A DNA stretch of 62,921 nt, from contig JAJYTS010000002.1 of assembly GCA_021792935.1 (NCBI GenBank), positions 1 through 62,921 of the forward strand. The letters are read 5' to 3'. The notes under the pieces were generated by a model that saw only the letters and a program-made list of their open reading frames with translations, was not told the origin of the DNA and ran no database searches. Each line of letters begins with the position of its first letter. Position 1 is the first letter of the stretch. Shown in pieces: positions 4,046 through 62,609 of the stretch. The position numbers and the translations under genes were made by a program. Origin of the DNA: Bacillota bacterium. GTDB taxonomy: Bacteria > Bacillota > Sulfobacillia > Sulfobacillales > Sulfobacillaceae.

Positions 4046-5296
4046 CTATCGAACCGTTTTGACCCGGGTTACCAGTGCCGATCCCGCTACAAAATAAACG
4101 GTGGTGATGAGGAAGAGGGCGCGATAGGCGGTGGGATTACTCCAGTGAAGCTCCGCCATGGTGAGAAAGAGGCCGGCGATAACCGTGGCGATAGTCTGGG
4201 CGATAGTTTGCGAGATGGACCAAAGGCCCATGTCTTTGGCGGCCTGGGCAGAGTAGGGCAGTACGTCCACGGCCAGTGCCCAATCGGTGGAGAGATAGGC
4301 GCCATAGCCAAAACCAAAAAGAACGGCCAATAGGGTCACCATTGCCAGACTATGGGTAAAAACAAATCCCAATGCCGCGACCCCCATGATGAGACCGCCG
4401 GCAATCACCATCACTTTTCTTCTTTTAAGTCGGTCGGACAGCCATCCCGCCGACAACACCGAGATGAGCGAGGCCAGGGTGACGGCAATGAGGGCGCGGT
4501 CCAGCATGGGATGAGGATTGGCGAGATGCTGCACAAAGTGCAGATAGTAGTAGAGGTAATATTCCAAGGTGGAAAATCCCAGCATGATAACCAGCCGTGT
4601 GGTAAACACCCACCACCAGTCACGGTGCTGTTTGGGTGAAATCCAAAAGGCGCGCAGAAATTGGCGGCCGCTCCAGCGAGTGGGCTTAGACAGTTCTGGC
4701 GCTTCCGGCACGCCAATTAGAGTGACGGCAAGGCCTAATAATTGGAGTGCGGCCAGCACTTCAAAAGTCGCTCTAATGGATAGGAAAGTGGGAATCAGGA
4801 CGCCTCCCATGACGGCGATTTGACTCATAAGACCCATGTATCCGGATGCCGCGCCCCGCTGGTTTGGAGGCACCACATCCGGGATGAGGGCTTGGTAGGG
4901 TGCTGTCGCTAAATTGGAGAAAATTTGCAGACCCAGATATAGAAGAAGGAATGGTGTGAGTTGTTGCGTGAGGCTCATCCCCACCAACAGGGCTGCTGTC
5001 CCCAGCACTCCGGCCAGCATGAAGGGGCGCCGCCGTCCCCAGGGATGGCGGCTTCGGTCTGATAGGGCGCCAAATAGCGGTTTAGCAGCCGACGCGACCA
5101 GCGCTCCCGCCGCCGTGAGCCAGGACATGGCGCTCCCCGCGTGGTTGGCTCCGACCATAGCCAGCATTAGCTGGGGAACAACAACAATGAGTAGAGCGGT
5201 CCACTGCGCGGTGGACGTTAACCAGAAGAAGCTGAGGGCGAGGTTTTCGTCGACGGTGAGCCGGTGAGGATTCGCGGTTCGAGTTCTGACGGCCAA
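4046..5296 (-). CDS. MFS transporter (SLC45/sugar-porter-like)
   Basis: A 416-residue major facilitator protein with about 12 hydrophobic segments and a loop 2-3 signature (KPLFGALSDRSRHPWGRRRP) typical of the GPH/SLC45-like group. The start is a TTG at 5296 with GGAGGGAGGCC immediately upstream. The second half has STDWALAVDVLP, nearly repeated in the MFS half of the fusion protein at 51.7-54.1 kb, so the two are paralogues. The substrate is not predictable. It runs convergent to the MazG-like gene, with only 10 bases between the stops. Confidence 0.85.
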   Translation of the reverse strand: MAVRTRTANPHRLTVDENLALSFFWLTSTAQWTALLIVVVPQLMLAMVGANHAGSAMSWLTAAGALVASAAKPLFGALSDRSRHPWGRRRPFMLAGVLGTAALLVGMSLTQQLTPFLLLYLGLQIFSNLATAPYQALIPDVVPPNQRGAASGYMGLMSQIAVMGGVLIPTFLSIRATFEVLAALQLLGLAVTLIGVPEAPELSKPTRWSGRQFLRAFWISPKQHRDWWWVFTTRLVIMLGFSTLEYYLYYYLHFVQHLANPHPMLDRALIAVTLASLISVLSAGWLSDRLKRRKVMVIAGGLIMGVAALGFVFTHSLAMVTLLAVLFGFGYGAYLSTDWALAVDVLPYSAQAAKDMGLWSISQTIAQTIATVIAGLFLTMAELHWSNPTAYRALFLITTVYFVAGSALVTRVKTVR

Positions 5297-5334
5297 GGCC
5301 TCCCTCCAGAGATGGAATTTAGAGGAAATTCGCT

Positions 5335-5363
5335 ACAATACGGGGAATTCCTGCCTTTGTGAA
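5335..5363 (-). promoter_or_regulatory. Predicted sigma-A promoter for the MFS gene at 4046-5296
   Basis: On the minus strand, TTCACA (plus 5358-5363) and TATTGT (plus 5335-5340) are separated by exactly 17 bases, about 40 bases upstream of the TTG start. The match is 5/6 and 4/6 to consensus. This is prediction only. Confidence 0.5.
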
Positions 5364-5661
5364 TATAGTCCGCACGCAACTTGCGAGGAATTAATGAAAG
5401 CGTTAGGCTCTAGGTAGATTACTGGGGGGAAGAGGCGCTGTTACAGGGATCTTAAGCTTAGGGCTGGGCGGGACGCTCTTTCCTTGTTATGATTGCCAAG
5501 TGCACTGGGTCAACGGCGTCGATTAGCCGGACTTTCTGGCGGATGGCATCGTGAGACGCCGGGTCTTCTCATGGCATCGAGGTGGCGGGACAATGATTCT
5601 TAGACGGCATCGAGGCGCCTGTGATTTGATGCGCGATCACCAGTGTTAAGGGAGGATAAGG
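5364..5661 (+). other. Leader region of the 2-oxo acid dehydrogenase operon, with direct repeats
   Basis: There is no coding frame here. GGCATCG occurs three times (5545-5551, 5573-5579, 5606-5612), twice followed by AGG, in the 120 bases before the operon. These could be regulator sites. A ribosome-binding site GGGAGGATAAGG directly precedes the lpd ATG. Confidence 0.4.
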
Positions 5662-7065
5662 ATGGCGGAAACCAGTTTTGACGTCGTTGTTTTAGGGGGA
5701 GGAACGGGAGGCTATGTCGCGGCGATTCGGTCGGCGCAGTTGGGACTCAAGACCGCGTTAGTCGATGCCGGAAAAGTTGGCGGAACCTGTTTGCACCGTG
5801 GATGCATCCCCACCAAAGCTCTTTTGCATACCGCCGAGTTATACCATACATTTCAACACCGGGAAGAATTTGGCTTAACCGCGACGAAAGTTGGCCTTGA
5901 TTACGCCAAGACCATGGCTAAGAAAGAAAAAGTGGTCACGCAGCTGTGGAAAGGCGTGGAGTTTCTTCTTAAGAAGAACAAAGTCACCCTGGTTGCGGGA
6001 TGGGGCCGATTGGTGGACGCAGGCCATGTTGAGGTGGAAAGTGCTGAAGGTAAAACTGTTCTAACGGCACGGGATATCGTGATTGCTACCGGTTCGGTGC
6101 CGCGAGAGCTGCCGGACTTGCCATTCGACGGAAAGCAGATATTGAGCTCCGATCACGTTTTGGCTAAGACCGACATTCCCAAATCCATTGTGATTTTAGG
6201 CGGTGGTGCCATCGGAGTCGAGTTCGCGTCTATGTACAATGACTTCGGCGCCGAAGTCACGTTAATTGAGATGCTTCCCCATATTCTGCCTCAGGATGAT
6301 GAGGAAATTGCCGGTGAACTGGCCAAACTGCTAACCCGCCGAGGCATTAAGGTTTTGGCTGGCACCAAGTTTAATCTGAAGAGTGTGGCAAAGACGGCTA
6401 GTGGCATATCCGCGACCGTCACCGGGCCCGATGGCAAGGACGCCAGTGTCGCGGGCGATGCCCTCTTAATCGCGGTGGGACGTCAGGCGATTACGGCGGA
6501 CATTGGGCTGGACAAGGCTGGCGTAAAAGTGGACCGCGGCTTTGTGACAGTGGATGACCATTATCGCACCAATGTGCCGCATATTTATGCCATCGGCGAT
6601 GTGATTGGTGGATATTTGTTGGCACATGTGGCCGCCCACGAAGGAATGATCGCCGTGGAAACTATCGCGGGTCAAAATCCAGAATTGCTGGATTCCACTC
6701 GGGTTCCCCGCGTCACCTATTCGCGTCCCGAAGTGGCCTCCGTGGGTCTAACAGCCAAAGAAGCAGAAGAGCGCGGATATGCCGTCAAGGTTGGGACATT
6801 TCCTTTTAAGGCCAATGGCAAAGCGCTGATTCTGGGTGAAGCCGATGGACTGGTGAAGCTGGTCGCCGACAAGAAGACCGATTCGTTGCTGGGAGCCCAC
6901 ATTGTGGGACCGCATGCCTCCGACTTTATTAATGAAATGGCCTTGGCGCGATTTTTAGAAGCCACCGCTTGGGAAGTGGCGGAGAGCGTGCATGCGCACC
7001 CCACTATTTCCGAGGTGCTGCATGAAGCGGCCTTGGCTGTTGACGGCCACGCGATTCACATCTAA
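5662..7065 (+). CDS. lpdA: Dihydrolipoyl dehydrogenase (E3)
   Basis: A flavoprotein that reoxidises dihydrolipoyl groups on E2 with NAD+. The FAD-binding GGGTGGYVAA motif is at the N-terminus. The redox disulfide is in GGTCLHRGCIP (Cys43 and Cys48). The NAD-binding VILGGGAIGVEFAS follows, and the C-terminal HAHPTISE carries the active-site His. The length of 467 residues is normal. It is the first gene of a run encoding E3, two E1-alpha, E1-beta, E2 and LipB. E3-first order is seen in Bacillus-type branched-chain clusters. Confidence 0.93.
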   Translation: MAETSFDVVVLGGGTGGYVAAIRSAQLGLKTALVDAGKVGGTCLHRGCIPTKALLHTAELYHTFQHREEFGLTATKVGLDYAKTMAKKEKVVTQLWKGVEFLLKKNKVTLVAGWGRLVDAGHVEVESAEGKTVLTARDIVIATGSVPRELPDLPFDGKQILSSDHVLAKTDIPKSIVILGGGAIGVEFASMYNDFGAEVTLIEMLPHILPQDDEEIAGELAKLLTRRGIKVLAGTKFNLKSVAKTASGISATVTGPDGKDASVAGDALLIAVGRQAITADIGLDKAGVKVDRGFVTVDDHYRTNVPHIYAIGDVIGGYLLAHVAAHEGMIAVETIAGQNPELLDSTRVPRVTYSRPEVASVGLTAKEAEERGYAVKVGTFPFKANGKALILGEADGLVKLVADKKTDSLLGAHIVGPHASDFINEMALARFLEATAWEVAESVHAHPTISEVLHEAALAVDGHAIHI

Positions 7066-44738: not shown

Positions 44739-44831
44739 ATGACTGGTCGAGTTAAGTTATGCCAAAGGTGTGGCGGAGGTTCTTTACATACGCGAAGGGG
44801 CTCCCTTTCGATTAGACTAAAACGCGCGTGA
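44739..44831 (+). CDS. Small CxxC peptide (30 aa) with strong ribosome-binding site
   Basis: The ATG at 44739 follows a very strong AAGGAGGCCTA. The frame reads MTGRVKLCQRCGGG, then basic residues, and ends in TGA at 44829-44831. If that TGA were read through, the frame would run to a TAA at 45019 and add a segment with FLACPGNDWTGGAG. A stable hairpin (44852-44878) follows the TGA, but no Cys is expected at this point, so I treat it as a normal stop. Confidence 0.35.
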   Translation: MTGRVKLCQRCGGGSLHTRRGSLSIRLKRA

Positions 44832-45191
44832 ATTAAGGTGGTGGGGGTGGCGGGCAAACGCCGTTTTCTGGCGTGCCCAGGCAACGATTGGACAGGTGGA
44901 GCAGGAAAAAGCGTATGGCCAGCCGACACGGATGCTTTCGGCGGCGACGATCCTAAAGAAAACATCGCTGTGTGGCGTGCGAGATCCAGTTCCTTACTTG
45001 AATGCCGAGGTCGCATGGCTTAACCGAGATGACCACAACCATTGCCCAGCGGGAACATCCTTTGGCCGTTACCGGTCCGCCCGCGGTGAGTCTAGGATGG
45101 GATACACTTGGGCTACTATTTGTCGTAAAGGCTTAGACTGTGGATACTAAATGTGTAGCCGCGTCCGGAATCAAGGGACAGGAGGACCAGG
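44832..45191 (+). other. Leader of the selenoprotein pair; small frames only
   Basis: It contains the hairpin at 44852-44878 and a 35-codon frame from the ATG at 45029 to the TAG at 45134-45136 (MTTTIAQREHPLAVTGPPAV then SLGWDTLGLLFVVKA). That frame looks protein-like but is unidentified and has no clear ribosome-binding site. It may be a gene remnant. Confidence 0.3.
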
Positions 45192-45434
45192 ATGGCTAAC
45201 AAAGTTGCAATCTATCATGCCCCAGGGTGAGTGTCGTGTGGTGCGGCCATGCGGTTTCTGGCCGATCAAGGAGTGCCCTTTGATGTGAAGGATGTCGTAG
45301 CACATCCAGAGTACTTGGAAGAGCTTTTGGCGTTGACGAACGGTGCCCCGGGGACGCCAGTGATTGTGATCAATGATATTGTTTATCGTGGTTTTGATCG
45401 GGGAAAGATTACACGCGCTTTAAATCTTGGTTAG
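45192..45434 (+). CDS. Glutaredoxin-like protein with U-x-x-C active site (candidate selenoprotein)
   Basis: An 80-codon frame from the ATG at 45192 (ACAGGAGGACC upstream) to TAG. Codon 13 is TGA (45228-45230). The N-terminus reads MANKVAIYHAPG-U-VSCGAAMRFLA, with U-V-S-C where glutaredoxins have CxxC. The rest is a normal small thioredoxin fold: FDVKDVVAHPEYLEEL, TNGAPGTPVIVIND with the cis-Pro, and a C-terminal helix. A 6-bp hairpin with a 9-base loop follows the TGA at SECIS distance. Starting after the stop would delete strand 1 and the active site. It is likely a thiol/selenol oxidoreductase. The next gene begins 10 bases later. Confidence 0.8.
45228..45264 (+). promoter_or_regulatory. 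Candidate bacterial SECIS element in the glutaredoxin-like gene
   Basis: After the TGA, 13 bases lead to CGGCCA (45244-45249), a 9-base loop TGCGGTTTC and TGGCCG (45259-45264). The loop begins 19 bases after the TGA and has a G in its first two bases, within the usual bacterial SECIS limits (about 16-37 bases). Confidence 0.6.
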
Positions 45435-45444
45435 GAGGAGCCTA

Positions 45445-45732
45445 ATGGCACGGACTGTACAATGCCCGGATTGTAGGGAGGACGTTCTTGTGCCGGCCCA
45501 GATCCAAGTCGGGAACCGGTTCGAATGTCCCCGATGAGCGGGGACTTATCTCCGGCTCGGTGAGTCGGATGAGGGGTGGACCGCCACCCGCGTTTATGTC
45601 GTAAGTTGTCCCGACTGCGAGGAGGAGATTGAACTCAAAGCCGGCGCGAAAGCGGGGGACCATTATCGGTGCTGTGGCCACGATTATGTGCTGACGTGGG
45701 ATTACGGGAGTTATGCCCTAGAAACCTCTTAA
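45445..45732 (+). CDS. Double zinc-ribbon protein with Sec/UGA as fourth ligand (candidate selenoprotein)
   Basis: A 95-codon frame from the ATG at 45445 to TAA, with TAGGAGGAG upstream overlapping the previous stop. The first ribbon is CPDC (residues 7-10), then RFECPR-U at 26-31, with TGA at codon 31 (45535-45537) where CPxC is expected. The second ribbon has VSCPDCEEE and YRCCGHDYV, where a His takes the matching place. The ribbon resembles LysW-type carrier proteins, but I do not recognise the family. The frame is intact after the TGA. It may be the partner or substrate of the glutaredoxin-like protein. Confidence 0.75.
45535..45569 (+). promoter_or_regulatory. Candidate bacterial SECIS element in the zinc-ribbon gene
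   Basis: TCCGGCTC (45551-45558) pairs with GAGTCGGA (45562-45569) in an 8-bp stem with one G-U pair, capped by the loop GGT. The loop starts 21 bases after the TGA. A loop GG-U is very like that of the E. coli fdhF SECIS. Confidence 0.65.
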
Positions 45733-61811: not shown

Positions 61812-62609
61812 CTACCGCAATGACCCGCCCAGTTTGTGTTGGATGTGTGCCATGTGGCTTCGTACCGTAGAGACTTCGATATGGAGATGTTGGGCGATGG
61901 CGGTGGTTGTCCACCCTGCGGCCACCAGCTCGTAGATTTCTCGTTCGCGCACAGTGAGCAAAGTGACCGGCGTGGGCCGCAACGGATGGTATACGGGTGC
62001 CAGTAGTGCGCCCAGGATGAGGGTATCCGCGACGACCCAATAGCCCACTACCGACCAGGGCCATATCGGTGTGGTTCGCAGCCCCGGGATAACGCCTAAA
62101 AGACCATTGGTCACGAGTATGTAACCTTCGGCTAGCAATGCTCCGCGTTGGTTTGGATAATAGGTGAGGATTTCCTGCGCAAACAAGGTTAGCAGCACGG
62201 GCACCAGTGTTTGTGGCGACTGGCTGAAGCTCCAGGCTATCCCCCATCCAATGAGCCCGTCGGCTATTACCGTTATCGGAATGATGCGCGCAATGGCATG
62301 GGGCCACCGCCAGACGGCGATCAGCTCAAGGCCATCGACTACCGCAAGCACAAGCGCTAGTATCCAAGCACGATCCCAGCTCATGTGGGGGAATTGCCAC
62401 CAGACCCATCCGAGGAATCCTGCGGTGAGTCCCCGCAACATGAGTCCACGCCGGTAAAGGGACCCTACACCGAGGCGCGGTGGTGGCGATTGCTGATCCA
62501 TGGATAACGTTGGCAGCACGGCTGTCTTGCCCCCTTCTAGGGACGTCAGACCCTCTGGCTTTGCGAACCGACCTTTCGATCGGAGTGCTTTGAACAACGC
62601 GGCACGCAT
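61812..62609 (-). CDS. Membrane-anchored LuxR/FixJ-type regulator
   Basis: 265 residues: a polar N-terminus, about five or six TMs (residues 50-200), and a C-terminal LuxR-type HTH (LTVREREIYELVAAGWTTTA, IAQHLHIEVSTVRSHMAHIQ). Membrane sensing joined to DNA binding makes it a one-component regulator. A TATAAT on the minus strand lies just upstream. The ATG at 62609 is nearly leaderless, with no clear ribosome-binding site. An internal ATG at residue 37 is possible. It is followed by the repeat array and the small membrane protein gene. Confidence 0.78.
   Translation of the reverse strand: MRAALFKALRSKGRFAKPEGLTSLEGGKTAVLPTLSMDQQSPPPRLGVGSLYRRGLMLRGLTAGFLGWVWWQFPHMSWDRAWILALVLAVVDGLELIAVWRWPHAIARIIPITVIADGLIGWGIAWSFSQSPQTLVPVLLTLFAQEILTYYPNQRGALLAEGYILVTNGLLGVIPGLRTTPIWPWSVVGYWVVADTLILGALLAPVYHPLRPTPVTLLTVREREIYELVAAGWTTTAIAQHLHIEVSTVRSHMAHIQHKLGGSLR

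Follow-up and report, generated by a model that had tools for sequence, protein, structure and literature searches.

Selenocysteine at predicted zinc-ribbon ligand positions of a tandem LysW-fold protein encoded beside a UxxC selenoprotein glutaredoxin

In most known selenoproteins, selenocysteine (Sec) is the catalytic redox residue. The nearest precedent for the ribbon family described here is found in the FmdB family (TIGR02605), for which the available sections of PMC2398784 and PMC9312934 report two zinc-ribbon selenoprotein sequences from ocean metagenomes, with the motif U/CxxU. Like our protein, these are small CxxC_CxxC zinc-ribbon proteins in which Sec is predicted to take the place of Cys, but they form a separate family of two sequences only, and those sections of PMC2398784 describe no linkage to a Sec glutaredoxin. 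TIGR02605 was not among the matches of our protein, and the best relative tested scored 18.9 bits against a cut-off of 31.3.

Three further systems resemble parts of the locus. The glutaredoxin encoded beside the ribbon is of the same general UxxC kind as UXX-star/GlrX_YruB (NF041212, TIGR02196), but it falls under the curated cut-offs (56.4 bits on the Uxx_star model NF041212, cut-off 66) and is paired with a ribbon protein. In Clostridium sp. OhILAs, a selenoprotein glutaredoxin reduces a selenoprotein MsrA, as far as this is given in the part of PMC9312934 that cites it (reference 60). The likeness is that one selenoprotein glutaredoxin would have another selenoprotein as its substrate, but the OhILAs substrate is an enzyme and the one proposed here is a predicted metal-site protein. 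The LysW/ArgW carriers (NF041070, TIGR01206, PF21344) share the fold, the CxxC...CxxC ribbon and profile similarity; the new family differs from them in its two tandem ribbons, its Sec ligands, its linkage to a Sec glutaredoxin, and its lack of both the EDWGE motif and a LysX/ArgX ligase above cut-off.

No LysW-like ribbon was seen in the accessible part of a 2026 inventory of 119 prokaryotic selenoprotein families (PMC13188914), whose text uses "ribbon" nowhere and "zinc" once; an earlier mention elsewhere in the literature is possible. A literature search joining selenoproteins and zinc ribbons found no relevant paper. The family is easily missed because standard gene calling would cut its genes at the TGA.

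The window, the whole 62,921-nucleotide stretch that was analysed, contains two adjacent genes on the same strand, which we read, on slightly better than even grounds, as a two-gene selenoprotein operon encoding a UxxC glutaredoxin and then a tandem zinc-ribbon-type protein with the LysW fold. The features, in window coordinates, are as follows.

45192..45434, + strand: Sec glutaredoxin-like protein with a UxxC motif (MANKVAIYHAPGUVSC...), 80 aa, stop TAG; Pfam Glutaredoxin E=1.5e-12, scored with Cys substituted for Sec
45228..45230, + strand: TGA codon in frame, read as Sec13 of the glutaredoxin; all 21 linked homologues have a TGA here
45433..45438, + strand: AGGAGG, Shine-Dalgarno-like, overlapping the glutaredoxin stop and separated from the ribbon ATG by 6 nt; from reading the sequence
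45445..45732, + strand: tandem ribbon protein with the LysW fold, 95 aa including Sec31, stop codon TAA; from the reading frame, homologues and predicted fold
45463..45537, + strand: predicted metal site 1, C7 (45463), C10 (45472), C28 (45526) and U31 (45535); from the 22-protein alignment
45535..45537, + strand: TGA codon in frame, read as Sec31 at the fourth ligand position of ribbon 1; codon 31, the sole TGA in the ribbon frame
45551..45569, + strand: bSECIS-like hairpin of 8 bp with one G.U pair, TCCGGCTC-GGT-GAGTCGGA; from folding
45607..45675, + strand: predicted metal site 2, C55 (45607), C58 (45616), C76 (45670) and C77 (45673); from the 22-protein alignment

The ribbon protein reads MARTVQCPDCREDVLVPAQIQVGNRFECPRUAGTYLRLGESDEGWTATRVYVVSCPDCEEEIELKAGAKAGDHYRCCGHDYVLTWDYGSYALETS*, and its ATG lies 10 nt past the glutaredoxin stop codon. 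The first-pass annotation, made from this one sequence, had described the first ribbon as CPDC plus CPRU with the TGA at codon 31, which is exactly what stands at 45445-45732. For the second ribbon it gave CPDC plus CCGH; the motif is there as stated, but H79 is not conserved, and the likely ligands in the 22-protein alignment are C55, C58, C76 and C77.

The alignment comprises 22 intact ribbon proteins, aligned over their full length, from two phylum-level groups; the members named here come from metagenome-assembled genomes (MAGs). Among related genomes, a search found relatives with a TGA in G037 and G036 and one with Cys in G047, and profile searches within the class added members in G104, G105, G113 and G111, plus a decayed pair in G096. 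A profile search also found the ribbon in UBA8248, a MAG labelled Nitrospinota, in whose phylum 14 of 18 genomes encode it; in the window's own genus it occurs in one genome out of eight. A single-sequence search of the genome contigs gave no ribbon match where the profile search did find members, and viral contigs that were searched gave none. Partial matches from the phylum (G261, G411 and others; E 1e-7 to 1e-4), mostly with one ribbon, were excluded from the 22. The decayed pair in G096 (L042, around 5064-5900) has lost the glutaredoxin active site and carries a frameshifted ribbon, in a genome that keeps SelA and tRNA-Sec.

All 22 proteins have either Cys or Sec at positions 7, 10, 28 and 31. 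The 17 in-frame TGAs across these genes are confined to two columns: position 10 accounts for 8 and position 31 for 9. These are the second residues of each CxxC knuckle, ligands 2 and 4. Three proteins have Sec at position 10 only, four at position 31 only, five at both and ten at neither. From the alignment, site 1 is predicted to hold zero, one or two Sec (Cys4, Cys3Sec or Cys2Sec2), with Cys3Sec in the window. That the second ligand position, 10, also becomes Sec in relatives, as predicted from their codons, goes beyond the earlier single-sequence observation, which had named as grounds for rejection the absence of any homologue with Cys or TGA at codon 31; homologues with each were found at exactly this position. 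On the tree, position 10 changed state at least twice (four times in the most parsimonious reconstruction) and position 31 at least twice (most parsimoniously three times), and the sister pair G540 and G545 differ at codon 10, TGT versus TGA. Downstream of the TGA, pN/pS between the window gene and its two closest TGA-bearing relatives is 0.29 and 0.40, rough values since synonymous sites are saturated, which suggests that these codons keep reading-frame constraint. It is practically certain, judging from these sequences, that TGA encodes Sec in the ribbon. Sec seems to be dispensable for ribbon function, since 10 of the 22 proteins have none.

Ribbon 2 behaves differently. C55 is kept, but among the 22 homologues position 58 is C, N, T or S, position 76 is C, H or L, and position 77 is C, D, G, N or R, and none of them is ever Sec. 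The resulting ligand sets vary (for example C/C/H/D or C/N/C/G), and the variation at 58, 76 and 77 suggests a less constrained, degenerating site.

The UxxC Sec glutaredoxin gene lies directly upstream in 21 of the 22 intact ribbon loci, at spacings from a 4 nt overlap to an 18 nt gap; absence of such linkage from other genomes was the other ground for rejection named in the first-pass annotation. All 21 linked glutaredoxins carry Sec, whereas only 12 of the ribbons do, and the one ribbon locus without the partner is that of G111, whose genome has neither the glutaredoxin nor SelA. Motifs around the glutaredoxin Sec are SSTTU and STFU in the second phylum and HAPGU and HSPGU in Bacillota, and UBA8248, the sole second-phylum member placed in the glutaredoxin tree, falls apart from the Bacillota proteins. 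The ribbon is very probably coupled functionally to the glutaredoxin. Eight second-phylum loci have enough sequence past the pair to show what follows it, and each of them encodes a thioredoxin reductase on the same strand no more than about 5 kb downstream (TIGR01292 361-369 bits in the three scored loci, cut-off 343). Because NuoI and nicotinate phosphoribosyltransferase genes accompany the reductase gene in a conserved block, its proximity could be plain synteny, and Bacillota ribbon loci do not have this linkage. Genes for putative Fe-S metallochaperones (CopZ_Nterm_CC) lie near the pair in two second-phylum genomes (L148:5170-5628 and L150:7723-8157; G539 and G548).

We give about even chances to the following account of the pair, in which the main role of the glutaredoxin would be to reduce the ribbon and the ribbon would act as a metal-selenolate redox switch or relay. 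Site 1 may hold zinc or another soft metal. In rubredoxin, Cys9 and Cys42 are exposed ligands. By analogy, the second residues of the site 1 knuckles may be exposed too, which would place Sec within reach of oxidants or of a partner. On oxidation the selenolates would form a selenenylsulfide or diselenide, and the metal would be loosened or released; the Sec glutaredoxin would then reduce the new bond by attacking it, itself supplied perhaps by thioredoxin reductase and NADPH, given the gene nearby in one phylum. The ribbon could then serve as a redox switch, a peroxide-consuming relay or a metal-releasing sensor. A chemical precedent is the zinc selenolate PhSeZnCl, which reduces H2O2 by a GPx-like mechanism (PMC10598800). 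That the two proteins are enzyme and substrate, as the first-pass annotation had proposed, is what we infer from this arrangement. The family is one of selenoproteins with Sec in a ligand set that is predicted to be of zinc-ribbon type, two-Sec sites included, and the stronger idea, of a native metal site that swaps Cys for Sec at both second-knuckle ligands and is reset by a dedicated Sec glutaredoxin, seems to us evenly balanced. If it is true, Sec at one or two ligands of a conserved tetrahedral metal site would mean that selenium tunes metal binding or release. Because members with zero, one and two Sec occur naturally, among them sister species in which a single ligand has changed, the role of Sec in a zinc-type site is directly testable, and the linked glutaredoxin offers a ready partner for study of the ribbon.

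The alternative that survives best, possible but clearly less probable, is that the pair is a trap or chaperone for soft metals or metalloids, in which Hg, Cd, As, Cu or Ag would bind at the Cys/Sec site and the glutaredoxin would either take over the metal or reload the site. Selenolates are tight binders of soft metals, the available part of the 2026 review suggests that Sec in SaoB, SaoC and UXX-star may be a metal ligand (PMC13188914), and the CopZ-type metallochaperones of G539 and G548 would fit. However, the loci examined, where some of the neighbours were classified, showed no mer, ars or metal-efflux genes beside the pair, and the linked partner, a UxxC glutaredoxin, is of reductase type. 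We therefore favour the metal-selenolate switch over such a trap, and by a wider step over an iron electron carrier.

The predicted fold bears on that last reading and on the relation to LysW. The ribbon structure was predicted with a pLDDT of 90.4 and a pTM of 0.69 from an eight-sequence alignment. Its five best PDB matches are all LysW proteins, at Z scores of 5.8-7.3, which are modest but stand clear of the next match at 3.6, and the top Foldseek rank is LysW 3vpb (E 0.037, probability 1.0). The window protein matches LysW profiles at E=2.6e-8, and one relative reaches 6.8e-13. The early description of two LysW-like ribbons is thus supported by both profiles and predicted-fold comparison.

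A rubredoxin-like carrier, with iron in the site and the glutaredoxin as its electron-transfer partner, appears unlikely. It would account for the CPxC knuckles and for the resemblance of the linked glutaredoxin to GlrX_YruB, which is named for a gene of a Clostridium pasteurianum rubredoxin operon, but all five top structural matches are zinc-binding LysW proteins, and the knuckle spacing of the ribbon is unlike that of rubredoxin. Less probable still is a LysW-type carrier for biosynthesis with amino-group-protected amino acids that happens to use Sec. Such a carrier would explain the fold and the profile similarity, but the window protein reaches only 33.8 bits on the curated LysW NCBIfam model (cut-off 75), the C-terminal EDWGE with its carrier Glu is absent in all 22 homologues, which end in GSYALE or similar, no LysX/ArgX ligase was found above cut-off in nine genomes (the window genome among them being 60% complete), and Sec would be left without a role. 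With cut-off, partner ligase and C-terminal motif all missing, the ribbon is placed outside the LysW family: on the predicted structure it shares the LysW fold, and family membership is not shared.

The 8-bp stem with a GGT loop described in the first-pass annotation is present exactly as given; the apical loop lies at 45559-45561, starting 21 nt after the TGA, and the hairpin has an energy of -10.7 kcal/mol. Its SECIS-like character is backed by a comparison of 44 codons at the two columns, where hairpins after TGA average 3.4 kcal/mol better than shuffles and those after Cys codons 0.4 worse (Mann-Whitney p=0.0007, an optimistic value because related sequences are not independent). Some position-10 TGAs have weak hairpins, and the 42 nt past the TGA, when folded globally to minimum energy, were not clearly better than shuffles, although local hairpins were. 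Stem covariation was no guide with only three sequences, as 350 of 500 shuffles scored equally high.

The window genome, a 2.02 Mb assembly that is 60% complete, encodes SelA (542.8 bits, cut-off 267.9) and SelB (354.4 bits, cut-off 242.3); tRNA-Sec was not found above cut-off in this incomplete assembly. SelA is present in 8 of 10 ribbon genomes and tRNA-Sec, at more than 69 bits, in 7 of 10, with neither found in G036, and G111, the sole genome with an unlinked Cys ribbon, has neither SelA nor the Sec glutaredoxin. An association of ribbon and SelA within the class was set aside as uninformative, SelA being already in 105 of 154 genomes. A genuine stop at the TGA, followed by a decayed gene or an assembly artefact, as the decayed pair in G096 might suggest, is the least credible reading of all, given the exchange of Cys and TGA in the same columns of 22 proteins, the constraint after the TGA, the hairpins and the Sec machinery.

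Several observations were made around the locus. Genomes of the window's class encode many TGA-bearing UxxC glutaredoxin paralogues each, mostly without a ribbon. The closest ribbon-less Sec glutaredoxins (HSPGUGGC/ASPGUGGC; L101-L103, in G040, G038 and G034) precede a frame that, by eye, is acetyl-CoA synthetase-like. A frame with a CxxC motif running through a TGA upstream of the glutaredoxin (44739-45023) had no family match and was not supported as a gene. In G113 the Cys ribbon is followed, roughly 0.8 kb further downstream, by a YtxJ bacillithiol-system gene with a TGA at its active-site Cys (TTUPVS; L007:2281-2634, DAHVAF010000119.1), which scores 104 bits on TIGR04019 (cut-off 77). No Sec-YtxJ was seen in the accessible part of the 119-family table (PMC13188914), and no paper pairing the two words was found. 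Finally, a c-di-GMP-I riboswitch (47 bits) lies at 62509-62599 on the minus strand of the window.
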